This document shows, piece by piece, positions 4,605 through 63,700 of a stretch of DNA of 64,000 bases (position 1 is the first letter of the stretch; each line of letters opens with the position of its first letter). Made by a program: the position numbers and the translations under genes. The stretch is from Polytrichum commune (lineage: Eukaryota > Streptophyta > Polytrichopsida > Polytrichales > Polytrichaceae). The DNA lies in assembly GCA_950295325.1 (NCBI GenBank), contig OX485803.1:46019554-46083553 (forward strand). Direction: 5' to 3'. The notes beneath the pieces were generated by a model. That model saw only the letters and a list, made by a program, of their open reading frames with translations, was not told where the DNA came from and did not search any database.

Positions 4605-4983
4605 ATTAGGATGACAAAGATAATTTTAAATGGTAAGTCACAAAATTATAACCTCAATGTTAATGAGCATTTTGTAATGTTTTTGATCTCCAAGTTAATT
4701 ATGAGCTTCATTGATGGTTTCACTTCCAAAATGAAATCCCAATCAATTGCTTATTTGCTAATTGGAAGTGCACATATATATTGGATTTTAGACCTTGAAG
4801 GTGAAGTGCATTCAATATGGGATTTGTAGTCAAGCGGCCTTCAAGAATGCAAAGGCAATGTTTTTTTCGAAGTTGGGCAAGGCGGACAACAATTTTCGGT
4901 CGGGTTTAGAAAATTTCTAAGGGTTGCCCCAACCCGGATTTGATACCTCCGAAAGTTCGTGAGGGGGTATTTAACGTCCACCC
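4605..4983 (+). repeat. Diverged single arm of the 25.9-27.2 kb foldback family
   Basis: The segment follows the right arm of the element at 25918-27203 base by base with many substitutions: ATGACAAAGATAATTT, the block with TCCAAGTTAATTA, GTGCACATATATATTGGATT, TAGTCAAGCGGCCTTCAAGA and the end GTATTTAACGTCCACCC. No matching left arm is visible next to it. Confidence 0.7.
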
Positions 4984-5269
4984 ATGTTAATTTTTCTTAA
5001 AAATAACCGGATTAGTAGTGATTGGTTGGCAACACATGATGCCCCCACTTGCTTCTACATGAAACATTTTTTTTTTCTATACCCCTTTATATTAATGCCT
5101 TAAGTATTAGATTAGACTAGGATTTTTAAAACTACTAAAACTTGGTATTTTTGAAACCCTTGAGACAAGGAGCCGACAACGTATGGAAGTGTCTAAAGTG
5201 GTTCATCTCATCCGCGAAGATGAATGAACTCTCACTAATGAGAATACATGAGTGCCACGAATCCCGGCT

Positions 5270-5507
5270 GGGGATTCGTGGCACTCAAGTAAAATCATCC
5301 ATCCAAGATATCGTGGATGAAGTGGCTCCAATAAAAAAAGCCCCCCTATGGAGTTGAGGGCCGATTCATTCAAATGTGACGTCATTAGACTAATTCGGGG
5401 CCTTTGACTCTATTTCCGGAATCAAATTGCCCAAAAATAGCCATTTGGATGATTCCTGTGTTTTTTTCATCCGCACGGATGATTTTACTTGAGTGCCACG
5501 AATCCCC
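5270..5507. mobile_element. 238-bp MITE with perfect 31-bp inverted repeats
   Basis: The left repeat is 5270-5300 and the right 5477-5507; they are exact reverse complements over 31 bases, beginning GGGGATTCGTGGCACTCAAG. The left repeat abuts another inverted copy of the same terminus (5250-5265), forming a near-perfect palindrome centred on 5266-5270. It sits in the right terminal region of the larger composite element and shares its termini, so it is a deletion derivative or a self-insertion. Confidence 0.7.
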
Positions 5508-5647
5508 GGCCACGAATCCCCGGCCCGTAGGAATGGTAGAAATTAGTATTCCGTAGGGTGTATGGATACAAAATAGAAATAAAATTTTCTTCAACCAACA
5601 AAGTTATTTGCACACAGATACTTGTGTAATTCATCCGATTTGCATGA

Positions 5648-5661
5648 GGTTATGGGCCCAC
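5648..5661 (+). other. Copia C primer-binding site (half initiator tRNA-Met)
   Basis: The sequence GGTTATGGGCCCAC is complementary to the 5' side of the anticodon arm of plant initiator tRNA-Met. It is identical to the site in Copia A even though the LTRs around them have diverged, which supports real function. Confidence 0.75.
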
Positions 5662-5699
5662 TGCAATTAAAATAACTTTGTAATTGTTCTCTAAATTGT

Positions 5700-6690
5700 T
5701 TTAAACAATGGATAGAAGGGACTCTGAGTCTGAGTCTTAAAGTATTCGATGGCGACAAATTCGCTGTATGGAAATATCACATGGAGATATGTTTCGAAGA
5801 CAAGGAAATTATGCCAATCGTGAATGGCACAAGTCCTAAAGCACCGGAAATTGCAATAGAAGCGAAAAAGGTTGCATGGCAAAAAGCAAATGTTCAAGCA
5901 CGGCAAATGATAAGTTCATCAGTCTCACTGCCTGTTCTTGAAAATCTTGTGAATTGTTCTACTACAACATGTATGTGGACGACTCTTTGTGCATTCTACC
6001 AACAAAAATCTAGAGAGAATATCTACATGGTTTAGAATAGTTTCTTTGAATACAAGATGAACACAGGTGATTCTCTCAACACGCACATCAACAAGGTTAT
6101 GAGCATGGGAATCTCCTCAAAGACCTAGGACAACTAGTTCCTGAGGATATGCTTATAACTAAGATTATATGGAGTCTGCCTCCAGGTTACAAAAACATCA
6201 TTGCTGCTTGGACAAATGTTCCTGCTCCTGAGCATTTTGTTCCTAACTTGAAGGTACGACTCCTCCAGATGGAAAATCTCATGGCATTACAAGGCGGGGA
6301 AATCACAGGCGATTTAGCTTTCTTCACCCGTTCCAACAAATCGTCCTCAAAAAACAAGAAACAAAGTCATGAAAAAAACAAGGACTACATCAAAGAATTA
6401 AAGAGTTGTACGCGCTGTTACAATTGTGTAGAGTTTGACCATTGGACTGTTGAATGTCCACATCCTCGCCAAGACAAAGTAAAATTCTCAAACCAGAAGA
6501 AACATCGATCTGATCGTCAATCAAAGATTACAAGAGGAAAACGCAGTGAAGCTTGTGTCGCTACAACAACTGATCAAACCAATTCTAGTTCAAGTGATCT
6601 TTCCTCAGACTATGATCATAATACATATGCATTTATGGCCGTAAGTAGGAAATCTCACGCACTGAGTGTAAATCTCGACAAGCAGGCTTG
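5700..6690 (+). pseudogene. Copia C gag (UBN2-type) with zinc knuckle, frameshifted
   Basis: A first ATG at 5708 is followed by a frameshift near 5730, after which the gag N-terminus LSLKVFDGDKFAVWKYHMEI is recognisable. An in-frame TAG at 6033 (a CAG-to-TAG change would explain it) and a further shift near 6105 interrupt the domain, which continues as KIIWSLPPGYKNIIAAW (near 6160). The zinc knuckle at 6416-6457 is a canonical C-x2-C-x4-H-x4-C. A lysine- and serine-rich linker follows. Compared with element A, length and block order are the same. Confidence 0.85.
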
Positions 6691-8905
6691 GTTTGTTGAC
6701 TCTGGTGCTACAGAACACATGACAGAACATAGAGAGTGGTTTTCTACTTTCAAACAAATTCCATCAGGTACCTGGTCGGTTACAGTTGCAGACGATCAAA
6801 ACCTCTGGGTTAGAGGCGTTGGTGATATAGAAATCACAAGAACTGTTGATGGTGTGCAGAAGAACGGACTTCTCCAAAAGGTTTTGTTCATTCCTGATTT
6901 AAGACGAAACCTCTTCTCTGTAGGTCTTACACCTCTAAAGCTGGCCCATCTTTTCAAACTTTTGGTGAGAAATGCGCATTGTATCGAGATCTTGGCAAGG
7001 GACCAAAGGTCATGGAAGGAACTCAAACTGGTACCCTTTACAAATTATCTATACAGTCTATTATTCCAACTTTTGTCACTCCCGAAATGTCTTTAGAACA
7101 CTTGACATCTATGGCTCTCACAGCAACAAGTTCTAGTGTTGATGAACTTGCTCTTTGGCACAACAGGATGGGTCATGTAAACATACATGTAATCAAGCAA
7201 ATGAGTGACCACAACAGCCTACAAGATTTTACTATTTCTCCTAACAGTACTCTTCCTAGTGTTTGTCGAGGTTGTGCTCTAGGGAAACAACACAAATCCA
7301 CATATCCCTCAAACCCTATGAAAGAATGCTCTCAAATATCAGGGGCACTTCTTCATGCTGATTTATGCGGCAAAATGTCTCCTACATCTTTGGGTGGTGC
7401 AAATTATTATACCCTTATCAAGGATGATTATACATCATACAGATTTGTAGGGTTTCTCAAGGCAAAGAGCGATGTGCTAAGATTTTTCATCAAGGTCTTG
7501 CGTTCAATGGAAAGGACTATAGGTGATCGCGTTAAAACTTTACGAATGGATCGGGGAAAAGAATTCTGCAACGACGAATTTGAGCTACTTCTTGAGCAAG
7601 AAGGTATTACTCGTGAGACTAGTACTTCGTATACTTCGCAACAAAATGGCTACATCGAACGTGACAACTGAACAATATGCGAAGCTGCTAGAAGTATGTT
7701 ACATCTTCACCAAGTTCCTTTGAAACTCTGGGCAGAGTCAATTCATATTGTTGTTCATCTCCTCAACCGCACTATCCATCACTATGTTGGCTTCATAACA
7801 CCTTATGAACTATGGTTCAATACCAAACCTAGTGTCTCCCACTATCGCATATTCAGCACGGTTGCATATACATTCATTGATAAATCCCTGCGGACTAAAT
7901 TCCAAGCAAAAGGACATATGGTTGTATTTGTTGGACATAGTGATACGAGTAAAGGTTGGCGGTTTTGGAATCCTTCTACGGACACTGTATCAGAGAGCTC
8001 TGATGTGATTTTTGATGAGACAACTGGCTATACACCATCTATTTTTCCTCAGCAACGAGTCGAGTATGTTGATGTTCCTATTTCCCTTTTCTCCCCTCAT
8101 GTGGAACCTCCATCCACAGATGCCGAGGTATCAACTACACATTCTACTCATAATAGCCTTCCTATTGCCACATCAACCCCAACAGTTTCAGTGGGAGATT
8201 CTGAGCACACTAACTCTATTTCACCTCTTATACAAGATAGTGCTCACTCAAACTCTACATCCCCAAACGCAGCATCCTTACCCTCACCACTCTCTGTTGA
8301 TCATTCTCCTTTATCAATATCTGAAGAAGATCCTTCTCATTCTTCCTTACCTTCCGAGCACTCTGATCCATATGCTCTGGATGTTCCCTCTAATTCTCAA
8401 GGACTACCTTCCGAACCATTACATCCTAAATTTCGTTCCCTCACTGATATCTATTCTGAAGCAGGGCTTTTCGATACTGAAGAAGCTAATACTCGCTTCT
8501 CCTTTGCTAACATGATTCATACGGCCGAAACATATAGGGAACCTGCGACTTATAAACAAGCTCACATGTCACCACATGCAGCTTATTGGAAAGAAGCCAT
8601 GCAGAAGGAATATGACTCCTTAATGGATAATCACACATGGACTTTGGTTCCGTCGCCTCCTAGTCGGAAAGTCATCCAGTGTAAATGGGTTTTACAGGAT
8701 CAAGTATAGTTCTAAAGGCGCTATCGATAAGTACAAGGCTCGATTGGTCGCTAAGGGTTACAACCAAGTTCATGGTTACATAGAAACCTTCAGCCCCATC
8801 ACTAAACATGACTCAATTTGCATTATATTCGCCATCGATGTTGTGCTTAAGTTGCACATGCGCCAATATGATATTGGCACAGCCTACCTAAACAATGACA
8901 CTGTA
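6691..8905 (+). pseudogene. Copia C pol: protease, integrase, start of RT
   Basis: The protease motif DSGATEHMT starts at about 6698 and is intact. A frameshift near 6925 precedes the GAG-pre-integrase (LWHNRMGH near 7160, CRGCALGK near 7265). The integrase core shows the expected acidic residues: LHADLCG near 7350, LRMDRGKEF near 7545, and the Glu region NGYIERDN near 7650. An in-frame TGA follows at 7669 (a CGA-to-TGA change would explain it) and the same frame continues to 8706 through LWAESIH, WFNTKPSVSHYRIF and a Ser/Pro-rich spacer. RT begins with EAMQKEYDSLMDNHTW near 8590. A frameshift near 8705 then leads to KARLVAKGYNQVHG and the block ends at about 8905. The catalytic RT motifs are absent. 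Confidence 0.87.
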
Positions 8906-18682: not shown

Positions 18683-20341
18683 CTACAAAGGACCTATGTG
18701 AGACCATTTCGCAAGGCTTGGAATGGCGGGGTTCACACCGGTGTTGAGCACCGTGAGCATGTACCAGCCTGGCGGAGCAACATTGCCATTCGGAGGCGAG
18801 GTCGCCTGAGTTCGGTAAGTTCCTGCGGAATACGTCACGGTGGTGGTGGCGAGCACCAGGGCTCGCTGGTTCATCGAGTTTGCATGCGTGGTGAAGCTGG
18901 GCTCATACAAGCTGACGGAAATGCTCAGAATAGGAGTGACGCATGTGAACTTGATCACCATTGGGGAACTCCAATTGCTGTAGCTCGGGTAATAGGTGAT
19001 GATGGGCCGGAGAGCATTGAATGAGGAGCTGAGGTAGTAAGGGCTGTACTTCTCGATTCGAAGCTCGGTGGGGAAGCGGACACCGGAGAACACATAACCC
19101 GCTTGGTCATTGCTCCCAGCCACCAACACGGTGCCGTCCGCTTGTATGTTGGCGGTGGAGTGGTACATGCGAGGAATGCTGGTGGGGCTTTGGGTAGTGA
19201 AAGTATCATCATTAATGTTGTAAATGAAGGGCGAAAGGGCAGGCACACGGTTCTGATTCCATCCAGAGAGTCCCTGCTCGGCACCGTTGATGATGATGAG
19301 CTCCAAAGTGGGAAGAATCAACATATCGCACATCACACGGGGTGAAGGCATGGTTTTGATATCCCAGGTGGGATTCGCGTCCGTGATGACCATGCGCCCG
19401 CACGTGTCTAAGGCATTCAAGAAAGTGCGGTTGAGAGCACTGAAGTAGGATCCGTTGGGTGCTCCACCGCAGATCATCACTTCGGCCTTGTTAAACCCGT
19501 CGGAGGCGAGGAGTGGCAATAGCACGGAGGACCCCGAGTAAGGGTAGTTCCTTGGGTCCAAACCAAAAGTAGGGAAAGTTTTCACCACTTTGTTGGCCTT
19601 GTAATTCAAGAGAATTGAGTCACGGTTGGCGAAGATGAAGAGATTGCCGTCTGGGCAGAGGTGCAGGAACGGGTAGAGGTTGTTCTCCGATTTGCCTTCC
19701 GCTGTCTGATCCAGGAAGGCCAGCTTGGTGACTCCCTGGCCTGCAGGTCTTGGCCAAAACTCGAAGTTGTGTTTGAGAGTGCCACCAACGATGATCACCC
19801 TGTTATCTGGCAAAATCTGATCTGATGAATACCATCTTGACAAGGATAGCGTTTGGTTCATCTCCGCCCAATCGTCCGCCTTCCCGGCGCCGATATAGCG
19901 AACCCTGTTGGTACCGCCCTTCCACCCACCGGTTTGGCACAAGGTGCCGTTGGAGAAGAAGGCACCGGAGGAGCAGAAGGGGTCGGTCTGCACCTTGAGT
20001 GGCCGGATGCCATTCGTGATGGAGTCGTACTGGATCGAGTGGGCAGAGCAGTCATGAGGCACGACCGTCTCCGTTGGCTCATCTCTGCAAGTACCGTTGG
20101 GCAGGTTGATCTGGGAGGTACCGAAATCCGTTCTGTCGTAGATGATCACCTTGTTTGTGTGCTGTGTGGTCATGTGCATGGCACTCACACCCGCTTTCTG
20201 GACCACGACATTCCACGAGTCCATCCCTGCAACAGGAGTTGTTGACTCTGCGAAGCGGCTCGCACACAGCATGGCGAAGACCCACAGCTCCAACTTCATT
20301 GTGGATGACACCATTATAGTCAATTCTACTGCAAAATGCAC
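18683..20341 (-). CDS. Glyoxal/galactose oxidase-like copper-radical oxidase, secreted
   Basis: One uninterrupted frame of 552 codons. The first Met is unlikely to be the start: Met-15 (codon 20297-20299), or Met-10, begins a good signal peptide (KLELWVFAMLCASRFAES), giving about 538 residues, the usual length for plant glyoxal-oxidase-like proteins. Glyoxal_oxid_N covers roughly residues 50-290 and the C-terminal DUF1929-type domain about 435-550. All copper-site positions known from galactose oxidase are present: Cys-123 (PFCSSG) and Tyr-171 (RWYSS) for the thioether cofactor, Tyr-393/His-394 (RMYHS) and His-486 (FTTHANS). The enzyme oxidises simple aldehydes or alcohols to acids or aldehydes with release of H2O2 in the cell wall. 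It appears to be intronless. No neighbouring gene is coupled to it. The exact substrate cannot be told from sequence. Confidence 0.92.
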   Translation of the reverse strand: MHFAVELTIMVSSTMKLELWVFAMLCASRFAESTTPVAGMDSWNVVVQKAGVSAMHMTTQHTNKVIIYDRTDFGTSQINLPNGTCRDEPTETVVPHDCSAHSIQYDSITNGIRPLKVQTDPFCSSGAFFSNGTLCQTGGWKGGTNRVRYIGAGKADDWAEMNQTLSLSRWYSSDQILPDNRVIIVGGTLKHNFEFWPRPAGQGVTKLAFLDQTAEGKSENNLYPFLHLCPDGNLFIFANRDSILLNYKANKVVKTFPTFGLDPRNYPYSGSSVLLPLLASDGFNKAEVMICGGAPNGSYFSALNRTFLNALDTCGRMVITDANPTWDIKTMPSPRVMCDMLILPTLELIIINGAEQGLSGWNQNRVPALSPFIYNINDDTFTTQSPTSIPRMYHSTANIQADGTVLVAGSNDQAGYVFSGVRFPTELRIEKYSPYYLSSSFNALRPIITYYPSYSNWSSPMVIKFTCVTPILSISVSLYEPSFTTHANSMNQRALVLATTTVTYSAGTYRTQATSPPNGNVAPPGWYMLTVLNTGVNPAIPSLAKWSHIGPL

Positions 20342-20414
20342 AGTTGAGTCATCAAGAGTTGAACTTTGAGTAGGTGATGCAGTTTGAGTCTTTTTGCAAA
20401 ATTCCTTTTGACTA

Positions 20415-47832: not shown

Positions 47833-48341
47833 ATGATGTTTGATGTAATTTGTCAACAACACCTTGATATGGATTCAATGATTAATCTCACATACATTGA
47901 ATGTATTCGTAAGGTAAGAATGTTGGGTGTTTTGTATGGGCCATGGTACATCAAACCAAGGTCCTTGCAAAACGATCAAGAGAGATGTAAGAGTCTTTTT
48001 CGAATTTCTGGTAAAACTTTTGATTATATTTGTGATATTATCGGGGTACACATGGAGAAAAATCCGTCTCCAGGTTTAAAAACCATTATTGGGTGGTGGA
48101 TGACTATACCTAAACAAGTTGCTATGGCTTTCCATCGATTAACGACCGGATATTCACATTACACCATGGGTGAGATATTTAGAGTTGCGGTATGTACAAA
48201 TGTAAAGACTTCCAAAAGGTTTGCAAAATCTCTTTTGATTGCCGCAATACCTTTGCATTTAAAGTGGCCGGTAGGTGAGAGTTGGCCAATATAAAACTTG
48301 GATTTCAGAACATTAATGACATTCTACAATGTTGTGGTGCA
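47833..48341 (+). pseudogene. PIF/Harbinger transposase, N-terminal half
   Basis: The frame reads SLFRISGKTFDYICDIIGVH, then TIPKQVAMAFHRLTTGYSHY, TMGEIFRVAVCTNVKTSKRF and IAAIPLHLKWP. These are the blocks that precede the catalytic domain in plant Harbinger (HARBI1-like) transposases: F-R-(M/I)-S...F, the (K/R)-V-A-x-x-L-x-R-L-A-x-G block, S-V/M-G-E-x-F, and the ...(I)KWP segment. In the next frame ANIKLGFQNINDILQCCGA leads up to the first catalytic Asp, and there the gene is cut by the LINE at 48342. A frameshift near 48285 also interrupts it. The enzyme would cut and paste the element at TTA/TAA targets. Confidence 0.75.
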
Positions 48342-48499
48342 AGCCATTCAAAAATATGCCACCCACACCACACACACCCAATCAAGAGACAAAAAAATAC
48401 ATACGCCCCCCCCCCCCCCCATCCACATCACCAACCTACAAACCAACATACAATAATGCAACCCGGACAAAGACATCCTTAGTACCAAACCCACCATAC

Positions 48500-49338
48500 A
48501 AATACACAGCCTAGAATCCAACATACATGACCATAATGGTAAATACATAGCCACAATTACCACGGAACGACTACATTGGTTATGGAACCAATTCACCCTC
48601 AACAACCAACCCCACATAACCAACTTCCTACAACCGCCCCCACAAGACTTCGAAACCGAAATAGTATGGCTCATGCAAAGACACATATCCATACTCCATA
48701 AGAAAAAACCAAAAATCATACAACCCAAAAATCAACACCACACGTTACACCCGGACATCACTAAACTATTCATAGAGACATTTCACATCACACACTCATA
48801 CTACTCATCCCCACTCACTTGTCCTATCCAACTCACACAATACAACTTACCACACACCCGAGACATAATATTTGGTTCACTAGGACACGCCCAATCCTCT
48901 AAATGGAATGGTATAGGCCTAGCATTCCCCACAGACCACAACACAACGGTCGAAGCCATACACTGGGCTAGAATGGCGGCCAAAGAAGACACACAAACAA
49001 GTACCATACTAATAATTAATCACGATGATTGGACACCAAAGAGAATCCCACTTAACAAACATCTAGACATGCACACAATAGTAACCATCCCACCACATAG
49101 CATCCACTATAACCCCACGCCCGAATGGCCCAAATACTACCAATACACAGAACCATCCCTCACATCCATCATCTACATACATAATCAAACAACACTCACA
49201 TCCACCCCACAAATCTCACAAGAACTAACAAACATACTAAAAACAATAACAACCACACATATTGACACACATCTTATTAAACCCACCCACGCACAACACA
49301 ACGTTAAATTCTCAAACAAATGGAAAAACGCCCCCTAG
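48500..49338 (+). pseudogene. LINE copy 1: linker region between RT and RNase H
   Basis: After the truncated start, LESNIHDHNGKYIATITTER then LHWLW matches HIYDEDGRHLITIPEHR then LQWLW of copy 2. The frame 48673-49338 contains IIFGSLGHAQSSKWNGIGLA then FPTDHNTTVEAIHWARMAAKED and TILIINHDDW. Copy 2 has KWIGNGYAHPHTEDDANQALHWARLAAK and TILITTNPNW in the same place. The block is therefore a conserved domain of the family and not a random spacer. I do not recognise it firmly; the W-x-G-x-G-x-A-x-P layout loosely recalls adenine methyltransferase NPP(Y/F) regions but the NPP is absent. Stops before 48673 show decay. Confidence 0.6.
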
Positions 49339-49434
49339 GTAAACATCCTCCCCTCCCCTAACACCACCCCAACACCCTTACCTCCCACATACTACCACAT
49401 TCACCCCCTCAAATATGACCCACTATCATGCATA

Positions 49435-49794
49435 TACACAGATGGCTCATTCATTCCGCCATCCAAAAACTCCGAGGGACAAATAGTGGGCAATACCGCA
49501 GGATCGGGAGTATATAGCCCCAACAACAACATTCAAATCTCAGAAAGACTACCCGGATATCAAAACATCCTAAGAGCCGAACTAAATGCAATCCTCATAG
49601 CCATTAAAACCATCCAAACCACCCAAAGAGACACACACATATTTACAGACAACCTTAATAGCATATACTTAATCAATAACCACATACAACACCCAACATC
49701 CCAACACCACCACCCAGACAAACTACTCATCGCTGCCATTATCAACCAAATATACTGGACCCCACAAATGATCCACATACACAAGGTACGGGCG
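49435..49794 (+). pseudogene. LINE copy 1: RNase H domain, first part
   Basis: The catalytic blocks are readable: YTDGSF (Asp codon 49441), RAELNAIL (Glu codon 49579) and IFTDNLNSIYL (Asp codon 49648), then HKVRA at the point of interruption. The fourth residue is in NEMADTLA (Asp codon 51380-51382), beyond the inserted element. All four D-E-D-D residues are thus still encoded, although the domain is split. RNase H in LINEs removes RNA from the RNA-DNA hybrid. Confidence 0.8.
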
Positions 49795-51346
49795 TTGTGA
49801 GGCCTAAACCACCACCCTTATGCGTCCTAGTCCAGGTGGAGGCTTAGGATCCACATTGTCACCCTCCAATGCTTGGCCCGTGGTCATGCTTGTTAACACA
49901 GTGATAAGGTAAAAATTCAACATACACTCTTTATTGCCAAGCGCCAAGGCCTAGTATTTAGAAAATACTTTGGCCTTGTTCTCATCAATCCAACTACTCG
50001 AACTCTAACCCGTCACACAAGAGGGTTTGGGCTAGCCTGGCCCTTCGTTTTAAATTCCCATTCTTCACCCATGCAACATTAATAATAATGTTTTGTTAAG
50101 TCCAAGATTCTGGCCATACCCTTAACCTCACTTAAACCTAAACTAATCCACTATACTTAACCCCAGCTGCATTAGTGGGGACTTCCTTACTTCTGCCCAA
50201 GCCAGCCTACGTCTCCCCTGTTTAAGCCCACCCAACAGTCACGGTTTGGTGGCACCTCCTACTGCTGTGTTATTGATTTCGTGGCACAGTGCCCCTGGCC
50301 CTGCCACCGAGGCCTGTTACGGGTGCCTCCTTAGCCCAGTCGCCCTCCTTGCTGGTCTCCTGGTCCACCGAGCAGCACCGAGAGCCCATCCACCTCGAAC
50401 CTTCTGCCGACCTATGCCCTTGATGTGAATGGATTCCCAGCAATGAGGATTCAAAATCCACCCAATGCAGCCCACTCCAGAGGCGCATGTGCGACACCCC
50501 CTGTCTTTCCTTATGCATACATTTTCCAGCCTCGCTCTGTTTACCTGTCTGTCCGAGCGATTTTTGATCCCAAATGGCCACATTCGATTTGAGTGACCTC
50601 AAAATCTACTCAACCGCCTTCTTCCCTCCGATCTGGCTGCATCCCTAAAGGCCTCGAAGCTAGTATACATCCTTCACTCCCAACCTTATGTTGTCTAGTC
50701 TTCCGACTCTCACATTTCGCTTAGTGCCCCCCAATTCTCCCTCGGAGCCGAGCGCCGCATTGGTGGCTGGGAGAATCCACCTCCTGCTTCATCAGAGATT
50801 CACATTCACCCATCCCATAAACTTCAGGCCCTGGCCGCACCCTGCCCTCGAATCTCCTGCCGCTACCTTTCGAGAGAGAGACCAAAACCTTTTGGCCGAG
50901 GCCTTGGGCCCCTTCCAACTCAGAAAAACCCGGGCCTCCATGCCTTCTCTGCCCTTGAATTCCCATCTCATCCATACACACGGGACCCCTCCTTTAACAA
51001 TCCTTGCAGATACCTAAAACAAACACACTAACAAGCCTAAACCCGTCCCAGCCTAATACCCGGCCACAACCAATCCCCGTCTGGGTAGATTAAACTCAAC
51101 TGCCACCTAACCAAATAAAAATTCCCCTAATATCACACTTAACACAACGCTAACCAATTCCCACAAAACTGTCTTGAGTTCCGAGTTCACAATTGAACTA
51201 CTCCCAAGCTTTCTAACCAAATCACAACACTAAAACCAAAGATTCACTATGTTTACGTCTTTTTTCATAATAGATAAAATTCCCAATCTAAGTTCTAATG
51301 ATTTTAAAGTTAACACGCATGTGGGCACACCATTTTGGGCTCACAA
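49795..51346. mobile_element. 1552-bp terminal-inverted-repeat element inserted in the LINE RNase H
   Basis: The left end TTGTGAGGCCTAAA and the right end (inverse TTGTGAGCCCAAAA) form a 14-base imperfect inverted repeat. GCG flanks both sides (49792-49794, 51347-51349); deleting the element and one GCG restores the RNase H reading GTACGGGCGCACACAGG (V-R-A-H-T-G). A 3-bp duplication is seen in CACTA and Harbinger elements, but neither the termini nor the GCG target fit either exactly. Inside, the sequence is C/T-rich and GC-richer than the surroundings; overlapping ORFs on both strands look non-coding. Confidence 0.72.
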
Positions 51347-52430
51347 GCGCACACAGGCGTTAGTGGAAATGAAATGGCGGATACACTAGCAAATGCAGGA
51401 ACACGACAAGACAAACCCGACATCACACCATGAATACACATAGCCCGCACTACCCCATATTGGCTAGCAAGTTGTCCAACCGGCACACACGACGGAGCAA
51501 TCCGTCACCTCCACACATTCATAACAAAAGAACATGAAAGCCAAGAATACACATCAGCCAACCAAAAATACCTATACGTCAACAAATGGCTATCAAACAA
51601 ACAAATCAACCAAAAACTGTCAAACCACTTCTAGAAAAGCAAGCAGGTCCCCGACACACAAATTACCCAAACCCTCAGATTTAGATATGCACAATACATG
51701 GGCAACCATAGAAAACATATATTTTGGCCTCTCCAATACCCAAATCCTAAGTGTACACTATGCCAAAGAAATGACAGAGACACATGGCCCCACCTACTAT
51801 CAACATGCGAACACCCATATTTAAAAGGGCTTAGAATTACAAGACATAACAAAGCCGTCCATCTAATCACACAAACACTACAAGCCAACAAAAATACCAG
51901 ATTCTTTACACGGGCCAATGCTGGTAACCTCAACAATCAACCACCAGACAACACAGTACCCGGATGGCTCCTAACATGCACATGCTCGCAAACGACATGC
52001 CACTGCCAAGCCAAACTAAGACCTGACATAATGTGCATTATAGGAGCCCACAACTAATCATCAACACCGATACTACCCTCCCCTAAACATACAATCCAAT
52101 TCATCGAATTTACATATTGCCATGACAGATTTCCTGAAGAAGCACTCACCCACAAACACACCAAATATGACCCACTCATCAACACCATACAAAACAACGG
52201 ATGGAAAGTCAACCCCCTAATCACTATCACAGCCGGAGTAAGAGGTGCTATCCACGAACATTCCATGGAAAAGCTAACCAACCTAAAAATCCCAAAACAC
52301 AACATTAAAACCCTCATGAAGAAAATACATGAAAATGCCATCAAATATCTCACATACATCGTCCTAAACAAAAGAAAACTTGATAACAAACAAACCCATG
52401 TCCCCCCCACCCTAACTAAACTTAATTAAA
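51347..52430 (+). pseudogene. LINE copy 1: RNase H end, zinc finger and C-terminal P-D/E domain
   Basis: Resumes at HTGVSGNEMADTLA. A frameshift-broken spacer leads to the open frame 51698-52057 with CTLCQRNDRDTWPHLLSTC (C-x2-C-x9-H-x4-C). A Cys cluster CTCSQTTCHC and then KLRPDIMCIIG follow. A TAA interrupts after GAHN (52055-52057), and the same frame continues with HTIQFIEFTYCHDRFPEE, then KHTKYDPLI and NGWKVNPLITITAGVRGAIH. A finger followed by (K/R)-P-D...E is the layout of restriction-like endonucleases in early-branching LINEs such as R2, though the D-to-E spacing (26 residues) is longer than usual. That identity is my inference. Confidence 0.6.
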
Positions 52431-52583
52431 ATAATATGATATAGTATGATAACAAGAGCCCACCTCCCAAAAGAGGCATAACGCCCTATGTTGCATCACA
52501 GGACACCGTGATCAATACAGGCCTAATGGGCTCACATTCATGCCGGTATACAATACTGGCGTTATTTTTTCTTTTCTTTTCTC

Positions 52584-53130
52584 TTGTGGTGCAATTAATT
52601 ACACTCACATTCTCTTTGATAAACCCCTCGATAGCAATAGTGCAAATTGGTTAATAGAGATCCCAATTATAATATGTTTTCCAACAATTGTGGACTTAAA
52701 AACTATATTTATAATGTTTTTACCGGATTTCCGGGCTACGTATACGATAGTCATGTTTTCTTGTCGTTCCAATCATCAATTATTTGTTACCAATGATGAA
52801 AGATCAAATGAAGTTACAAACGACATACAAGGTGTGGATGTTTATGAATTCATTATAGGCGATACGGTATACACGGCAAGCCAAAATATGTTCGTACCAC
52901 GGTAGGGACAACGGTTGTCGCTTATATTTCAATCGTACAATTTCAAACATTCTAGCACATGTATGTGTGTAGAACATGCATTTGGTATTTTGAAGGAGTT
53001 TCGATTTTTTTTTAAAAAAATAACACATATGGACTTTTAAAAGATACCTTCACTTATTATAATATGTTGCATTTACACAACATTGTTATAGATAAAAATG
53101 ACACCATTGATGAAGGTTTAGTTCTTTAAA
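52584..53130 (+). pseudogene. PIF/Harbinger transposase, C-terminal half
   Basis: After the LINE, CGAINYTHILFD picks up exactly where CCGA broke off. The expected motif is G-A-x-D-G-T-H, so the first catalytic Asp is now Asn and the Gly is Tyr. VDLKTIFIMFLPDFRATYT stands where VDxxxxFxxxxVGxPGSxHD is expected, so the second Asp is also lost. IIGDTVYTA, then a TAG at about 52903, and CVEHAFGILKEFRFF follow, with the third acidic residue (Glu of VEHAFG) retained. The enzyme is dead both by insertion and by substitution. Confidence 0.72.
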
Positions 53131-56403: not shown

Positions 56404-58964
56404 TTAAGAGATGATTTTGCGGTTGTGGAATGCAGAAACTGGAGTAACAATCTTGCCCTCCTCCGCCAATTTAATGAAAATGACTCCCATCACTCCTGTG
56501 TGTGGACCATCCACTTTCGTGTACTTGACTTGGTACCGGAGTTTCTCACCCTTCTTCACATTCATGTTCTCATCAAGCCCACAGTGCATGATTCCCACAA
56601 CATAACCCCTCTCATCTCCAGCTGTAGTACCATGGCCATAAATTGGGGCAGACTGACAGAGTATACGTCCATCCTCAGCAAACAACTTTGAATCTAAGCT
56701 GAAAGCATGCAGGTGCGAAACAGAATACACAATTCTTCCAGTGTATTTTGAGACAAAGGTCGCTTCGCGAACATCCACACATTCAGGTTTGTGAGCATCT
56801 GCGGCATTGCACGAGCCTTCGACAGTGTACTCTACTGTGCCACCAAAGCCTTGGTTGGTTACATCCAACCCCATGGACACCAAAGGCACAACACATTCAT
56901 CATACACCACATAACTCCAAGTGTACTGCAAACCACATCAAATTATCAAACTGTCAAACACACTTGACTGTGATTTCTCTTCACTCCCAAAAAGAAAGGA
57001 CACAACCTAGGTTTGCCAACAACAAAGTGAGCAATAAAATCTCTACGTTTGCAGGCTACTGTCTCTATTTAAAGGTGGACACTTTCTAACCTAGCCATGG
57101 CCCATTTAAGGTGTGGAGATAAGTCTCAAACGGTCAAAGATATTGGTTTCATTCTCTTTGATGATATGCCATAGAACAAATATAAAGCCTCAAACACACA
57201 TTTGTAGCATCAATTTTCTTACATTTTATTGCACAATCTTCAGTTGGAGGTACTCTCATACACTTCAAATATACAATAACAAGCTGCAAACAGGACTTTC
57301 ATATCAATTTTCATAATATTGCCAATTTTCAGATGCACATACCTTCAAGTACATGACTCTCTCCAAGTCTTTGTTATCGCCATCAACGTCGTCTCTCAGC
57401 AAACACCGAGACTCGTCCCCACAGCACTTCAAACCGCCAGTGTAGCCTTCAGGTATAGAAGGGCGCTTACCACCTGAAAACAAATCACATCTGCAAGGCA
57501 TTCAAAGTATGAGAATGAAGAACCATAATATACCATGCCCAAACTGTCCTATTTAGAATGGTCATTATTCGCATGTGAACAACCTATGTGGGTAGCCATT
57601 CTGGTTAAGCACCTCACTGAGCAACATTTATGAAACAAAGCTTCACACTACTTTATCATCTTCCTCAGTAAATCTGTAAAATCTCAAACCAATTGGCTCT
57701 CTAATATAATTTATTTTTGAGGGAAGTTAGATGGGGACTTTTTAAGAGAGGGAAGAAAGGGGGAAAATGAATTTACTATTAACAATAAAAATTTCTAACA
57801 TGTGATTCATCCCCCGCAGGAGGAAGTACCACTCGAAGGTAACCTTGAACCCACATGTGGATAATTGCCCGTCGCAAGTAGGGAAAATGACTGCCAAGTA
57901 TGGTAGCCAAGGGAAGGAACACTTAGATGCTTAAAATCTTGTTTAAACTAGGGGTGATCGTGGGGGTGGTTATAGCAGTGGTAGTAGTTTGCTTTCTTTG
58001 GTTCTGTTTTCGAGGAAAAGGCATAATAAATGCTAACCACCCCTTGCCCATCGAGCCCCCTTACCCCTCGTGGTTCACCACCCTTGAGGTGATCGTTCAA
58101 GCTCATGCAGTATCACAAGAGAGCTTCAAAGTCAAGGTCTGGGGTCCGGGAAAAAATTGAGGAACAACCACTTAAACACTACAATCCAAAGCCAATAAGG
58201 TAAACCGTTCAATTCCCGAGATTCAACCCAATTCCCCGTCCATGTGAGAATGAACAACCAAAGATTCACCGACAAATTTTACCTCCAAATTCACAGATAT
58301 GAAATCATGCCCATAAATTCCAAGAAATGCACCACCATGTGACTGACCTGCATTCGGTACAGCCCATTCGATGGACAGTGCCCCGGGTATCGATTCCGTG
58401 TACATTCAGCAGCCAGCGAGGATGATACTCGGCGGGCATATAGCCGCTCTCCATACCATAGGGAGCAGGAATGGTGGAGTTCGTGTGACGAGTCTCCCCA
58501 CCCTTTGCCCAAGTCTGTCCGATAACCCTGTTCCCACCGGCCACCGCCATCGCCATGTTATGGTGGTACACATGCGCAGGGTTCCTGAGCAAATCCGCCT
58601 TCACCGACTCCGCCAAACTGCCTGTCGCCTCGGCCTCCCGGATCCCAAACTCCGTTAGCACCCAGTGGTGCAAGTAAACCTCGGACAGCGGCACCGACTC
58701 CCCGTTCTCGAACACAAGCTCGGCATCGAAATCTCGGGTTGCAAATCTTCCTGCCACCGGCGGCTTCACGTCGAAGAACTTGTTCTGCACATCTCCAGGT
58801 CGGAACTTCAGCGCTGGGGAGCGGAACACCTCGGTGCGAACCTCCGACAACGAGGGGCACCCTGCTGCCGCAACCGAAACGAAACACAGAAGCATTACTA
58901 CTATTAACACACCCATCGATCCTCCTCTCCCCATCATCGCATTCCCCGACCAAACAAAAACCAC
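56404..58964 (-). CDS. SURNod19-domain secreted protein, three exons
   Basis: Exon 1 is 58964-58348 (donor CAG/GTCAGT), exon 2 57490-57343 (acceptor TTGCAG, donor AAG/GTATGT) and exon 3 56925-56404 (acceptor TTTGCAG). Lengths 617, 148 and 522 join in frame to 428 residues plus stop, with a codon split between exons 1 and 2 (TECR/CDLFSGG). Met-1, Met-10, Met-11 or Met-17 could start; all lead into a signal peptide (GVLIVVMLLCFVSVAAA), so the protein is secreted. The body matches the stress-up-regulated Nod19 family: VYLHHWVLTEFG (97-108), a TRHTNSTIPAPYG block (158-170), GYMPAEYHPRWLLNVHGIDT (174-193), and a Cys-rich exon 2. The biochemical function of the family is unknown; members are reported as stress-induced. 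It looks intact. Confidence 0.9.
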
Positions 58965-59073
58965 GAAAGGATTTAGACTCTTGGATTGATTCTCCGCCCA
59001 GGAGCGTCTTAGAGCAGGAAATCGAAGGCGGGTATAACTGTTTGAATCACAGTTTTCTGGTAGAATCTAATAC

Positions 59074-59296: not shown

Positions 59297-59584
59297 CTCC
59301 CTCCCATGGGCTGGAACCTCTTTTGAGGGCTTCTTGCTGCCCTTCCCTCAGCCATTCAACCCAGCCGCTACGAAGAAGAAGAAGAACTCCAACCCTTCTT
59401 AGGGGCCGGAGTGAATAGAATGTCTGTTCGTAGGACATCCTTAGCCATACCCCAGGGTAGTGGCGTTGGGTGTAATACTACTTCACCCTTTTCAGGGAGT
59501 AGACACTATGTTGTCATCAGTTAATTAGTTTTACCGGGAGAACCGGTGAAGGAGGTGAGGGGTGGGGGCAATGTGTCCTGGGAA

Positions 59585-60639
59585 TTAAGTATGGGTTTGT
59601 AAGTTATGGATGGGCTGTTTATTTTCAATCCGTCTTTTATGAATTAAAATTGAGTGTGCATATTTTATGGCTATTATGTTGATTTGTCTAAATGTGTTCT
59701 TAATTTGTGGAGTGGGGAGTTTGAGTTGCGTGTGTAACGCAGTCGTCGAAGGGATGTGAGTAGTGGCTCTAGCACCTGATGCCAATACAATGAGTGGGGC
59801 TACCTGCCATCCATTTGAAATGAGATTGTTAATGAGTGGTTGATATTTGGTGGTTTTTCTTTCAAGTGTTTCGGCAGGGAACCTATCATTACAGTATGTG
59901 AATTCTATGTATTGTATAGTAATTGTTGGTGTGGGTGCAACTGGTGGTGGGGAATTGTATAGATGTCCAATGACGCACAGGATGTCGGGTTTGAGTCGAG
60001 CATTGCAATGACAACGTGGTGTGTCGCATGTACAGGGTAGCAACCATGTGGGTACTGTGTTTTCTTGAGGGGAGTCGTTGTATATGCCTGCATTCATGAG
60101 TGTATAGTGTCTCGTAATTTTGTTGGAGATGAGAAGTTTACGGATTTCCCAGACAGCTTTATTATGGCGGTTTGTGATTAGTGCATGGATGTGTTGTTGT
60201 TTACATTTAAGAAGTACATGTAACCATGTATCTGCTTCGGGCGAGTTACAAATTGGGCATGTATGGGATGGGTATGCGGTCCGACCAAAGAAAAGTTGCT
60301 TATGGGCATGTCCCATGTATTGTCCAGTTCTAAATTTCACTAGGCATGTTTTTTCTTTATCCGTTATAGCCGGGTTATTCCAAAAATCATTTGATAATGC
60401 CTTGTCAATGTCATTGTTTGCAAGCCATTTGTGTAGTTGGTGTGTTTGGGATGCCATAATTGTCAAGTTGCGCTTTTTGTCATATTTAAGGATGTATTGT
60501 CCAAGATGACGAATAGGGCCTTTATCTGGTGTGGCTTGCATTGAATGCCACCAGTTTTTTTGGAGGTAATATGGCGTGGGGTGGGCATGTTTGTAAGGTT
60601 CTTCGGCATGTCTGTGGTCTAGTGTACATCCCATTTTAG
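59585..60639 (-). pseudogene. LINE copy 2: zinc finger and C-terminal restriction-like domain
   Basis: Within the 436-codon frame 60895-59585 the finger is C213, C216, H226, C231 (C-x2-C-x9-H-x4-C), followed by a Cys cluster CTCDTPRCHC (288-297), K302-P303-D304 in LKPDILCVIG, then E331 in IEFTYCNDRFP, K347/K350 in the next helix-like stretch, and GWQVAPLIVLASGARATTH. The P-D ... E ... K pattern and position after a finger suggest a PD-(D/E)XK restriction-like endonuclease that nicks target DNA. The 26-residue D-to-E gap is longer than the 12-14 quoted for R2-type elements. No stop interrupts this part, which is the best-preserved sequence of the family in the window. Confidence 0.6.
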
Positions 60640-61276
60640 CTAGTTTATCGGCTTGTTCATTCCCACTTATGTTTGCGTGGGCCTTGACTTTATGGAGTGT
60701 GGTTGTTTGTGTGCGAGTTTGTAGCATCCTAACTATAGATTCAAGTATTTTTTTGTCGGGATGGCTATTATGTAAGGTTGGGTGTTTTGTTTGTGTGTTG
60801 ATGAGGTATAGGACGTTAAGACAATCTGTGAAGATGTGAGCAGGTTCGTTCCGATATGTGGTAGTAAGGAGGCATAGGGTATGGTGTACAGCCATGAGTT
60901 ATGCTCTTAGGATATTTTGGAGTCCTGGCAGCCGTTCAGCGATTTTTAGATCTTTGAAAGGATTATAGATTCCATAGCCTGTTTTTTCGCGAATCCATTG
61001 TTCTTGGGTTATTGCTTTGGGAGGTATAAATGATCCATCTGTGTAATAGCAGAGGTGCGGTTGGTATTTGAGAGGGAGGCATATGTTTTGATTGTTAAGT
61101 GGTGGGATATGAGTAGGTGGGGTCGTAATTGGGGAAGGCATATATGGGAGTTGGGACCATGTTTTATTGCGATTCACTGGGGTGTTCAAGGGTGTGGGGG
61201 GGACAATTGTGTTGAATATTGAAGGTATTTGTAATGTGGTGCCGAGGATGTCCATGTGACGGGCATACTCTCGCAT
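60640..61276 (-). pseudogene. LINE copy 2: RNase H domain with stop at the catalytic Glu
   Basis: YYTDGSF (Asp near 61039) begins the domain. RLPGLQNILRA is followed by TAA at 60901-60899 exactly where copy 1 has GAA for the catalytic Glu (RAELNA). The same frame continues LMAVHHTLCLL, IFTDCLNVLYL (Asp near 60826), HKVKAHANISGNEQADKLA (Asp near 60649). Apart from the nonsense codon the domain is intact. Confidence 0.8.
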
Positions 61277-62746
61277 CGCAGGAGGTGAGGTTTTATGGTG
61301 TATACATAGGACATGTATGTCTCAGCTTTCAATTCGGGGTTCGATTCGTAATTCTGGTGGTATGGTGGGTTCGTCATATGTAATGGTATATGCTTTGAAG
61401 TGTGTGATGACATGTGAGTCCGAAAAGGGGCCTTCATGGGGATGAAGGTTGTGATACCAGTTAGGGTTTGTTGTGATGAGTATCGTCATTGTGTTAGGGT
61501 CGTTTTTGGCGGCTAGGCGTGCCCAATGGAGGGCTTGGTTGGCGTCATCTTCTGTATGAGGGTGAGCATACCCGTTCCCAATCCATTTATGTTGGAACGC
61601 GGTTCCTATGGACCTGAATACTTTATCTCAAAGGTATGGGAAGGAGACTTGGCTTAAGGAGGTGGGGCATGTGACGGGTGAGGAGAAGTGTGAGTGGGTG
61701 ATTTGGAATGAGTCAATGATGTGTGTAAGGATGTCGTTGGGTAATGTGTATTGGGAAAATTTAAGGGGGTCATTCTTAGGTATTTTGTATTTGTATCATT
61801 TGTACAACCATGCGACTTCTTGTTCAAATGATTGTATGGGGGGTTCTAAATTATGTGATTGATGTGATGCGGTTTGGTATATTTCCCATAACCATTGGAG
61901 TCGATGCTCCGGAATGGTAATTAAATGGCGCCCATCCTCGTCATAGATATGTGATGCACCATGTTGGCTTTGGATTGTGGGATGGGTGTGGGCGATGTCA
62001 ATATCGGAGTTGCATTTGTTAATAGAGATGTGACATAAAGGGATGTTGTGGTGGGGGGGAATGTGTCGTGCGTCTCGTATTTGTGCTTCTTTAAAATTGG
62101 AGTTTAAAATGTGGGTAAAGTGTTGATGTTGTTTGTGAGTATAGTATTGGGTTAGGAGTAAGATGTTATGGTTTATGGTATTTTGACTTTCCCATGGGAA
62201 TAAATCCCTTTGAGGGAGCCATTTGTTATAGAATGAGTCGTTGGGGTTAATCCATTGGCATAGATAGGATGTGTACGTTTTCGTAATTTGGTTTTTATCT
62301 ATGTAGGTGTGGGAGCGGTCTCTTAGTATGGAGTGTAGTGGGTAGAGGGTGGGGTTTTGTAGGATGTGTAGTGGTGTTTTCGGGTGTACGGGTGGTGGTA
62401 GTGGCGGAGGAGGGTCACTTAGATTCCATATTCTTGGATTTATTTGATGGGGTAGTATTTTGTATGAATCTTTTAGGGTGTTTGGTAAGGCATACGTTGG
62501 GCAATTGTTTGGGCATTGAATTTGGCATGTTGATTCACAAAAGAGTAGCCTTGCGTGGTCTAGAGCGGCTTTAAGTGTTTTGGTGGGTGCATCATAGTAA
62601 TATTTGAATTCGTCGTTGGACATTAATTGGGTGCCATTAGGGTTTGTTATTTGTTTAAGGTCGGTGATGTTGTGAAGGATTAGTTTATGTAGGTATTTAA
62701 GAGAGGTTGTGTAGGTTAATGTGGGGATATTTTGAGAGTGCTGCAT
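61277..62746 (-). pseudogene. LINE copy 2: long linker between RT and RNase H
   Basis: A 316-codon open frame (62746-61796) contains a Cys pair cluster CESTCQIQCPNNC, a Pro-rich segment, and HIYDEDGRHLITIPEHR then LQWLW, shared with copy 1. After 61796 the match moves to another frame: HKWIGNGYAHPHTEDDANQA then LHWARLAAKNDPNTMTILIT (61600-61470), again shared with copy 1. The conservation between two diverged copies shows these are functional domains of the ancestral protein. Identity is unknown. Confidence 0.55.
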
Positions 62747-62829
62747 CCATTGTGTTTCAAGTGGTGTGGGAAGGAGTGGGAATTTTACAAGTGTGCTTCG
62801 TAAGTGGGCTCCGCTAGTTGTTTTGAGTA

Positions 62830-63699
62830 AATATAATGTTCATGTGATTGGTGATCGGATACAATCATGTTGGGATATGCGTGGGAGGTTGAGGGATCCT
62901 CCGTGTTTGGCAAGTATGTGTGTTGTTAGTCTGGTGTAGATTTTTCCAAGTCGTCCTTTGTCATTAAGGGCGTTAATGAGTTGCTCACCTATGCATGTGA
63001 TGTATGCGTTTTTTAGAGAAAATGCTTCGGTACCAAACATATTTTGAGGGAGTTGGACGACTGCGTTCGACATACATTTTGGGAGGCCACATATAGTTTT
63101 GTGGAGGGCAATTACTCATTTATCAAGTTTTTTAATGGCGGGGAGTGAGTATGGGACTGCATAAAAGCTATAGACGATGCCAGCTCTTATGACAGTGTCA
63201 ATCATTTGTATTTTTTGTTTCATTGTGGTTGGGCACGTTAATAGGAGTTTACATTGTTTGATGAGTTTGGTTGTGGTTATGTGTGTTTGGGTTTTCCATT
63301 GAAGTGATGGGACTAGGTTGATTCCAAGATATACGTATGACTCGTGTTGACTTAGGGTAGGGATGGATTGGTCCCTAAAGTTTATATTAGCGTTTTCTAA
63401 GTGCGTTTTGAAAGCTTGGGGGTTAAGTTTTTATTTGTTTGGGCATCCCGTGACTGCACATTTTGGGATGCCTAGGTCCATGCCTGCCCATTCGCAATAT
63501 TTGTCTAGTTTGTCTAATTGAAGTTGTAGGGATGTTAAACTGTGGGATATTGCTGCTAAGTCGTCGGCGTAGGCTGTAGAGCTGAGTTGTGTAGCATAGG
63601 TATTAAAAGTGTATCCATTATTTCCCCGTTGTAGCCACCTAAGGAGTGGTTCGAGAAAGATGATAAAAATGTATGGGCTTATAGTGCCGCTACTCAATT
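62830..63699 (-). pseudogene. LINE copy 2: reverse transcriptase (palm to thumb)
   Basis: The frame 63697-63431 starts LSSGTISPYIFIIFLEPLLR and carries STAYADDLAAISHSL, the RT box with YADD, followed by CEWAGMDLGIPKCAVTGCP, a typical post-YADD block (…(N/G)xxKC). The RT continues in another frame with LSQHESYVYLGINLVPSLQW (63360-63300) and ends with LPKCMSNAVVQLPQNMFGTE then AFSL and ISQHD (63075-62850). At least two frameshifts or stops interrupt it. The fingers and most of the palm before YADD are missing. Confidence 0.78.
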
Positions 63700-63700
63700 C

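Follow-up and report, generated by a model that had tools for sequence, protein, structure and literature searches.

What kind of element left two LINE copies that join an RNase H to a putative restriction-like endonuclease (RLE) in a plant nuclear genome? A first-pass annotation had pointed out both loci in the 64,000-nucleotide stretch of Polytrichum commune contig OX485803.1 analyzed here (the window). We consider it highly likely that both are dead copies, truncated at their 5' ends, and that they derive from a very large LINE lineage of the Dualen/RandI type that has been active recently; this judgment includes the mechanism proposed below.

Both loci were borne out, and their ends (59585-63700 and 48342-52583) were corrected to 59372-63685 for copy A and 48343-52585 for copy B (Table 1). 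The lower boundary of copy A was moved because its 3' UTR and tail run past 59585. The RT, linker, RNase H, and CX2CX9HX4C finger attributed to copy A are all found on the minus strand, including the RT palm with YADD; its RNase H is matched by PF00075 on window positions 59585-60898 (minus strand) alone (E 6e-8). The distal motifs described earlier are also present in copy A, namely the second Cys cluster (CTCDTPRCHC), (K/R)PD (KPD), EFTYC...K (EFTYC...KTTKY), and GW-V-PLI (GW..PLI), and copy B follows the same order, as had been claimed. This arrangement exceeds chance, judging by the matches elsewhere in the genome, the motif order, and the dN/dS values reported below. Being 5'-truncated, neither copy reaches the APE endonuclease. 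Because only truncated copies were visible at first, the PCIF1-like domain, 2A motifs, ORF1, and 3' RNA structure had gone unrecognized.

Table 1. Features of the two copies in the window (TSD, target-site duplication; each is 8-9 bp).
Feature	Position	Strand	Basis
Copy A, 5'-truncated inside RT	59372..63685	-	3' end by signature and tail; TSD and 5' start; homology to L005-L010
Copy A TSD GTAGCGGC, 5' copy	63686..63693	-	
Copy A TSD GTAGCGGC, 3' copy	59364..59371	-	
Copy A RT remnant (approximate): palm with YADD and thumb, fingers lost	62840..63680	-	includes tblastn of P0001 (799-2168)
Copy A PCIF1-like domain (approximate, projected from P0001 1410-1525), NPPF replaced by AHPH	61519..61864	-	Pfam PF12237 on P0001; alignment of relatives
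Copy A RNase H (approximate), catalytic Glu codon is a stop	60622..61051	-	
Copy A CX2CX9HX4C zinc knuckle	60203..60259	-	alignment; residues 214-232 of 437-aa frame
Copy A putative RLE region: RHN, Cys cluster, KPD, EFTY, KTTKY, GW..PLI	59759..60169	-	signature in PMC5678591 (accessible part)
Copy A 3' UTR stem-loop structure	59385..59512	-	
Copy A (TTC)n 3' tail	59372..59384	-	
Copy B (second family), 5'-truncated; L014 is the nearest full copy read	48343..52585	+	
Copy B TSD GTGGTGCAA, 5' copy	48334..48342	+	
Copy B TSD GTGGTGCAA, 3' copy	52586..52594	+	
Copy B PCIF1-like domain, NPPF replaced by AFPT	48640..48900	+	PF12237 E 8e-4, 19.4 bits, below family cut-off of 31.1
Unrelated, unidentified insertion (~1.55 kb) splitting copy B RNase H	49790..51345	+	
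Copy B CCHC knuckle and putative RLE region; one stop at 52055	51635..52426	+	
Copy B 3' UTR stem-loop structure	52453..52565	+	

Four full-length elements of 11.9-14.6 kb were identified in the genome, the 14.6 kb element having open frames for ORF1 (1,822 aa) and ORF2 (2,924 aa). The first ATG of ORF2 overlaps the ORF1 stop as ATGNNTAG in four of the five copies read. ORF2 encodes, in order, a hydrophobic leader, one to three motifs of the 2A/StopGo type, an APE endonuclease, RT, a linker with a PCIF1-like domain, RNase H (PF00075, E 4e-12 to 2e-16 in four ORF2s), a CCHC knuckle, and a C-terminal RLE signature (RHN-[KR]PD-EFTY-KX2KY). Stops or frameshifts interrupt several copies, so that a single copy can mislead, and adjoining separate elements or captured genes might only resemble one ORF. 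Such a chimera is scarcely credible: uninterrupted frames of 2,919 and 2,924 aa carry the 2A motif, APE motifs, RT, PCIF1-like domain, RNase H, and RLE motifs together, the order is repeated in diverged families, and TSDs bracket the entire unit in L011, L012, L014, and L016. ORF1 itself has no Pfam domain at E < 0.03; RRM-like stretches in it are an impression only.

The search for an upstream APE domain in full-length copies, which had been suggested as a check, was positive. Exo_endo_phos or Exo_endo_phos_2 exceeded the curated Pfam cut-off in three of four ORF2s scanned (L005, L011, and L014; not L012), and the APE motifs WN, QETK, YMP, GDFNRD, and NSDH occur in all eight ORF2s reaching this region. 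Placement of the RT within L1 in an APE-only architecture would have refuted the original proposal and was not observed. Nine RTs of the lineage form their own clade beside R2, separated with 100/98 support from the group made up of human L1 and nine L1-like RTs of this genome. This tree is unrooted and midpoint-drawn, so it cannot tell whether the RT is nearer R2 or L1, and it lacks Dualen, I, Jockey, and RTE references; its named rows are PDB fragments only, because searches of viral contig and genome contig collections returned no relatives.

We also weighed whether the element is an ordinary plant L1 with an RNase H and a common CCHC finger, in which the PD..E..K pattern is coincidental. 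The same genome holds L1-like LINEs, human L1 and Bombyx R2 are matched almost equally by the RT profile (89 and 82 bits, respectively), and in APE LINEs, too, the linker ends in a CCHC knuckle (PMC5678591, in the portion available). This reading is nonetheless very improbable, as it is contradicted by the present tree (a larger tree with named references could restore it) and by mean RT identities of 70% within the lineage and 64% within the L1-like set versus 21% between them; the structured 3' UTR and its non-poly(A) tails also speak against it. Judged by these comparisons, the RT is outside L1, including the L1-like LINEs of this genome. Plant L1 and RTE LINEs share APE, RT, and CCHC with the element, and some plant L1 elements have RNase H. 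The element differs from plant L1 in its RT placement (RTE was not in the comparison) and its RLE signature, and from both groups in a 3' UTR that is folded and precedes a short microsatellite tail of (TTC)n, (CTAT)n, or (TTTTC)n, not poly(A).

The proposal that the C-terminus is a restriction-like endonuclease is upheld at the level of its signature, including the displaced catalytic lysine of KX2KY; the fold has not been shown. CCHC, RHN, a Cys cluster, [KR]PDI, EFTY, and KX2KY follow the same order in 13/13 ORF2 stretches examined, several of which are close relatives (L012 and L013 are nearly identical). All 13 meet the R2-type criteria of RH, PD, E/D, and KX2KY with displaced first K, a lysine that belongs to the published RLE-LINE signature (PMC5678591, accessible part). 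The knuckle CX2CX9HX4C, also present in every stretch, is one residue beyond the published range of CX2-3CX7-8HX4C. Because the GXW published after the fourth strand of R2-type RLEs is not evident in the alignment, we call the region R2-like and not a member of R2. The only PDB matches of the RLE profile at E ≤ 10 were two forms of Bombyx R2, which match weakly (best E 0.96) and in register at CCHC-RHN; other R2 proteins in the PDB are matched by RT and not by this profile. Weak Pfam matches of the C-terminus to DUF2043 and SwaI-like families were set aside. AlphaFold, an intended check, gave no confident fold for the C-terminal 273 aa (pLDDT 41.6; three rows, window rows only), and the best Foldseek match to the model had an E value of 1.0. 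The strand order of this low-confidence model loosely fits the RLE topology and was not used as evidence.

The C-terminus could instead be a conserved zinc-rich nucleic-acid-binding domain descended from an RLE and no longer a nuclease, leaving APE to do all the cutting. The missing confident fold is compatible with this, as is the second Cys cluster, CXCX4-6CXC, that lies just upstream of PD in all 13 stretches and that we do not know from R2. We regard the loss of nuclease function as unlikely given that all 11 rows covering each motif retain PD, E, and the initial K of KX2KY, across families ~42% identical, and that all eight pairs compared (which share members) have dN/dS values of 0.06-0.11 in the CCHC-RLE part. 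More generally, dN/dS is well below 1 wherever computable (RT is saturated in four of eight pairs), and by this measure purifying selection acts on the RLE, APE, and PCIF1-like regions. Two unrelated DNA-cutting enzymes remain our preferred reading; as far as motifs can indicate, with the RLE fold not shown, they appear to be united in one large, abundant plant element.

The linker domain is homologous to PCIF1/CAPAM over ~85-130 residues (PF12237; PDB 6irx, 6irv). In comparison with this cap-specific m6Am methyltransferase, the element's domain sits inside a retrotransposon ORF and lacks NPPF, which is replaced by AHPH, AHPP, AHPD, or AFPT in 23 of 24 distinct places examined (L072 had no anchor match, and L075 is the same place as L012). 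The AlphaFold model of this region was poor (pLDDT 37.8). Inferring from sequence alone, we take this domain to be most likely a module that binds RNA or caps without catalysis.

The 2A/StopGo type motifs, GD[IV]xxNPGP, precede APE in one to three instances per copy. Seven of 21 are exact D(V/I)ExNPGP; the E position is H in seven, Q in three, and K in three, and one motif reads AIHTNPGP. No activity data were found in the literature for Lys at this glutamate position, which occurs in three full copies. The motifs may split the element's own protein during translation, although peptide separation is inferred without activity data. In LINEs that bear 2A sequences, the motif is located before the endonuclease. 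Our element shares with L1Tc of Trypanosoma and with APE LINEs of animals an N-terminal motif of the D(V/I)ExNPGP type (PMC11512398 and PMC4981915, available portions). It differs from them in host and clade, in having one to three motifs in each copy, and in the replacement of E by H, Q, or K in many of these. A 2026 survey did not find natural StopGo recoding in plant viruses.

Three families together have 1,844 exact 3'-end signatures, and the C-terminal 437 aa matched at least 97 places at 71-100% identity, with only 96 of 6,276 first-look candidates scored. Recent activity is indicated by two copies on different contigs with different flanks that are 99.67% identical over 13,320 bp. The lineage might have been gained horizontally from an alga or other protist and expanded in the plant, as opposed to being inherited among land plants. 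In the accessible parts of the sources, plant LINEs are described as L1 and RTE only (PMC9033089) and RandI is listed in green algae only (PMC3747384), as such a transfer would lead one to expect. We nevertheless find horizontal gain doubtful, since the lineage comprises three or more diverged families, whose 3' ends differ in sequence and whose dS is mostly ~1 or above, or saturated, which points to long residence in the host.

Dualen, named at the outset as the nearest precedent, holds that position: Dualen/RandI of green algae is the nearest described kind known to us. It shares with our element the pairing of APE with RLE, an RNase H, and non-poly(A) 3' repeats (PMC3747384, PMC3636483, PMC4640811, each as far as accessible), and algal RandI tails include (ATT)n and (CTATTT)n, with "other repeats" in 8/8 families (PMC3747384, likewise). 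Our element meets the criteria of APE upstream of RT, RNase H, and a non-poly(A) tail, and that of a downstream RLE at motif level only; it differs in its length and in its host, a plant that has LEAFY. Dualen of Chlamydomonas reportedly has a cysteine protease (2005 abstract). Pfam scans of ORF2 and of pieces of ORF1, which have long unassigned stretches, detected no peptidase. The related RT and the order CCHC, RH(N), PD, E/D, KX2KY are common to R2, R4, NeSL, CRE, HERO, and Utopia. Relative to these RLE LINEs the element adds APE and RNase H, the latter of which Utopia has in part as well (PMC4640811, accessible text), and its insertions look dispersed, without site specificity.

We infer that ORF2 would be translated after ORF1 by termination-reinitiation and that StopGo would release the hydrophobic leader, leaving an enzyme of ~2,300 aa. 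This enzyme would recognize the stem-loop adjoining the tail; one endonuclease would nick the target, and the tail would prime target-primed reverse transcription. The RNA would be removed by RNase H, and cleavage of the second strand may fall to the other endonuclease, without our assigning either nuclease to a step. An abundant, recently active dual-endonuclease plant LINE makes it possible to ask directly which nuclease nicks which strand, and thus how APE replaced RLE.

The suggestion that this land-plant family may be undescribed stands, in that we found no description of the combination, no report of PCIF1 or PF12237 inside a retrotransposon, and none of a PCIF1-like domain and 2A motifs in Dualen; most subscription literature lay outside the search. 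Two of its features are separate novelties, each testable: the PCIF1-like domain, as a cap-methyltransferase fold within a retrotransposon, and the 2A motifs, as StopGo-type sequences native to the genome of a plant. It is a speculative extension, which we think will probably not hold in full, that a land-plant LINE clade distinct from algal Dualen has both endonucleases working in one ~2,300-aa enzyme, an inactivated PCIF1 recruited as a reader of capped RNA or RNA polymerase II, and natural StopGo recoding. If true, it would provide a cap-reader within a retrotransposon and a test bed for the passage from RLE to APE in LINEs.

Finally, insertion sites are scattered; the duplications measure 8 to ~14 bp, and truncation at the 5' end occurs. 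No common target was seen in 20 fetched family-B 3' flanks (17 parsed by script, two by eye, and one without a 3' end). The 8-nt word TGGTGCAA occurs in the duplications of both L016 and copy B and is treated as chance because it is absent from the other readable family-B flanks. The 3' fold comparison omits three rows: L028 has an internal repeat, L032 lacks a 3' end, and L037, in which one base of the terminal hairpin is changed on inspection by eye, escaped the pattern.

The lineage represented by two LINE copies in the window is a Dualen-like dual-endonuclease LINE, abundant and recently active in this plant genome. Both window copies are dead. Copy A starts within the RT, corresponds to residues 799-2168 of the 2,169-aa ORF2 stretch of L005 (a lineage copy on another contig; 76% identity), and ends in a (TTC)n tail. 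It is flanked on both sides by GTAGCGGC, an 8 bp duplication, and carries in-frame stops, one of them at the RNase H glutamate. Copy B, from a second family, is ~94% identical in DNA to another lineage copy, L014, shows the target-site duplication (TSD) GTGGTGCAA, and contains stops as well. Unrelated, more GC-rich sequence splits its RNase H; a repeat search of this insert gave no flanking or terminal repeats, and it remains unidentified.

Positions of features in the window
Feature	Position	Strand	Remarks
Fragments resembling several Copia-type elements	395-1704 and 2384-8709		By eye; one Pfam SH3_retrovirus match
Glyoxal oxidase-like gene	18683-20413		PF07250, E 1e-96
Copy B	48343-52585	plus
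Insert in copy B RNase H	49790-51345		~1.55 kb
SURNod19 gene	56407-59066	minus	Two exon-like pieces
Copy A	59372-63685	minus

An upstream APE endonuclease, which the first-pass annotation had proposed seeking in full-length copies, is present. Exo_endo_phos or Exo_endo_phos_2 scored above the Pfam cut-off in L005, L011, and L014, and the motifs WN, QETK, YMP, GDFNRD, and NSDH occur in 8/8 ORF2s reaching this region; the APE Pfam families were not above cut-off in L012 ORF2. RVT_1 matched four ORF2s with E values of 4e-26 to 1e-29. We built an RT tree from nine lineage RTs, nine L1-like elements of the same genome, and four PDB-derived references. The nine lineage RTs formed one clade (100/100), with human L1 and the local L1-like RTs on the other side (100/98). 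Mean RT identity is 70% inside the lineage and 21% versus the L1-like set. The tree is unrooted, has long branches, and includes none of the I, Jockey, RTE, or Dualen clades as references. The lineage RT profile gave 140 and 123 bits with two R2 proteins, 89 with human L1, and 82 with Bombyx R2. On this sequence evidence, the tree excludes L1 membership, the outcome that would have refuted the earlier reading, and, being unrooted, leaves the clade and any proximity to R2 unfixed.

The second, restriction-like endonuclease (RLE) follows the order CX2CX9HX4C, RHN, CXCX4-6CXC, [KR]PDI, EFTY, KX2KY in all 13 ORF2 stretches. RLE LINEs, in the available text of PMC5678591, have a CCHC knuckle, an RH at the first helix, and a PD-(D/E)XK core, and their catalytic lysine has moved to the first K of KX2KY. 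The lineage shows the RH, PD-(D/E)XK-type residues, and KX2KY, and a knuckle of the same kind that is one residue longer than published; no clear counterpart of the published GXW following strand 4 was seen. An RLE profile searched against 177,635 PDB sequences matched only two Bombyx R2 forms at E ≤ 10, weakly (E 0.96), and no other R2 protein there. The Bombyx R2 alignment runs through the CCHC His-Cys and RHN, and a chance pick of this protein among so many sequences is unlikely, weak as the score is. For the restriction-like C-terminus suggested in the first-pass annotation, the motif-level signature holds; structure prediction with AlphaFold yielded no usable model, leaving the fold unconfirmed.

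The dN/dS ratios are rough, since members recur among pairs and most dS values are close to or >1. They were low: 0.06-0.11 for the RLE (8/8 pairs), 0.10-0.18 for the APE (5 pairs), 0.04-0.14 for RNase H, 0.10-0.17 for the linker, and 0.04-0.11 for the RT in four pairs, with four others saturated. Constraint is weaker in the stretch following the PCIF1-like domain (0.16-0.45).

This PCIF1-like domain (PF12237) lies between RT and RNase H in 10/10 aligned sequences (E up to 1). L005, L011, and L012 pass the curated cut-off, but L014 and copy B fall short of it. In the genome, 150/150 listed matches were above cut-off, with 150 of 697 candidates scored, and no match was found in 14 control genomes (non-plant as far as named). 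The aligned region matched only two PCIF1 sequences in the PDB at E ≤ 10 (E 0.0087 and 0.67). Disruption of NPPF lowered human PCIF1 activity, according to the accessible portion of PMC6318281; of 24 distinct places inspected, 23 have this motif replaced and one gave no anchor. Because dN/dS is 0.07-0.15 in 8/8 pairs with NPPF replaced, the domain, as read from sequence comparison, is retained despite loss of the catalytic motif. A role in RNA or cap binding is an inference without functional data.

Upstream of the APE, GD[IV]xxNPGP-type 2A (StopGo) motifs occur one to three per locus in 13/13 loci; one reads GAIHTNPGP. Across all six frames of the screened loci (L001-L017), there are 21 sense-strand 2A-type motifs versus one other NPGP, which is antisense. 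Exact D(V/I)ExNPGP accounts for 7/21, and the E position is varied to H in seven, Q in three, and K in three. The H variant is >95% active in its own context, and the Q variant 26% or 56% active in earlier work cited by the same source (PMC12846837, available in part); we found no activity data for K in the literature. That partial text also describes StopGo as functional in plant cells, and reports almost none in plant viruses and no evidence of its natural use by them. A 2A sequence at the N-terminus can also serve as a signal sequence (excerpts of PMC4981915), and the ORF2 leaders of the lineage are hydrophobic by eye.

Dualen/RandI elements of green algae encode APE and RLE and are also listed as having RNase H (PMC3636483, PMC4640811). 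Dualen is present in every core-Reinhardtinia alga studied (PMC8226300), and plant LINEs are listed as L1 and RTE only (PMC9033089); all four sources were available in part. The lineage has APE, RNase H, and, at motif level, RLE in common with Dualen/RandI and adds the PCIF1-like domain and 2A motifs. The literature searched, which did not cover the 2005 Dualen description, contained no report of these two additions in Dualen or of a land-plant Dualen. The case for a Dualen-like mode of action is stronger than that for formal Dualen membership, which needs algal references.

Further copies were taken as thirteen open ORF2 stretches (L005-L017), several broken upstream; open-frame lengths run from stop to stop, and bracketed TSD bases could equally be tail. 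L012 (14,586 bp; ORF1 1,822 aa, ORF2 2,924 aa) is bounded by copies of (TAT)AGTAACTTAAA. L014 (12,864 bp), L016 (11,919 bp), and L011 (~13.5 kb; open frames of 1,310 and 2,919 aa) have the TSDs (TTT)GGGGATCAAG, (T)GGTGCAATGAT, and (TAT)GTAGATGAAGG, respectively. L013 and L012, on separate contigs, are 99.67% identical across 13,320 bp with differing flanks, and L013 has its own TSD, (T)GACTCCCACT, with an additional 8 nt at its 5' junction. Situated after the TSD and before the truncated element, these nucleotides duplicate a word just upstream; 5'-end template jumping is one possible source. Duplications of at least 9 bp were found in 6/8 copies tested, with 8 bp in copy A and none in L005. 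At L005/L023, the LINE 5' end adjoins a 1,298-aa open frame resembling Copia by eye.

In four of the five copies read (L012, L013, L014, and L016), the ORF1 stop and the initial ATG of ORF2 overlap as ATGNNTAG, in the forms ATGACTAG, ATGAATAG, and ATGGATAG; L011 lacks the overlap. From this overlap, we infer that ORF2 would be translated by termination-reinitiation after ORF1. In L014, L016, L018, and L019, ORF1 is 1,300-1,800 aa long, is Pro/Thr/His-rich in its N-terminal part, and matches no Pfam family. As an impression only, RRM-like folds and a helical stretch may be present in its C-terminal part.

The final 110-130 nt form a closing stem enclosing inner hairpins; a short linker then leads to a terminal CCGG hairpin beside the tail. 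This fold is common to families of quite different sequence. Compensatory changes affect 7/36 pairs in family B (22 sequences, leaving out L028 with an internal repeat, L032 without a 3' end, and L037, missed by the pattern) and 6/29 in families A and C (10 sequences). The lowest-energy fold of copy A alone departs in the inner part, and the joint A/C fold loses part. Flowering-plant L1 ends are poly(A) in 224/233 families, and algal RandI ends are other repeats in 8/8 (PMC3747384, partial text). Exact 3' signatures of the three families number 435 (control 4), 506 (control 6), and 903 (control 0); some of these may mark only short 3' ends that lack coding sequence.

The genome comprises 408 Mb, nearly all in seven large contigs. 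It also holds L1-like LINEs in two groups with long open frames (L055-L063) and three LEAFY loci, two of which (L076 and L077) differ by one residue (MRHYVH vs MRDYVH), with a stop within the matched region of L077. Window genes include glyoxal oxidase and SURNod19; together with the LEAFY loci, they identify the genome as that of a plant. The SURNod19 gene starts ~300 bp from the copy A 3' end (59364), and copy A lies upstream on the same strand, so that the LINE may sit in the SURNod19 promoter region.
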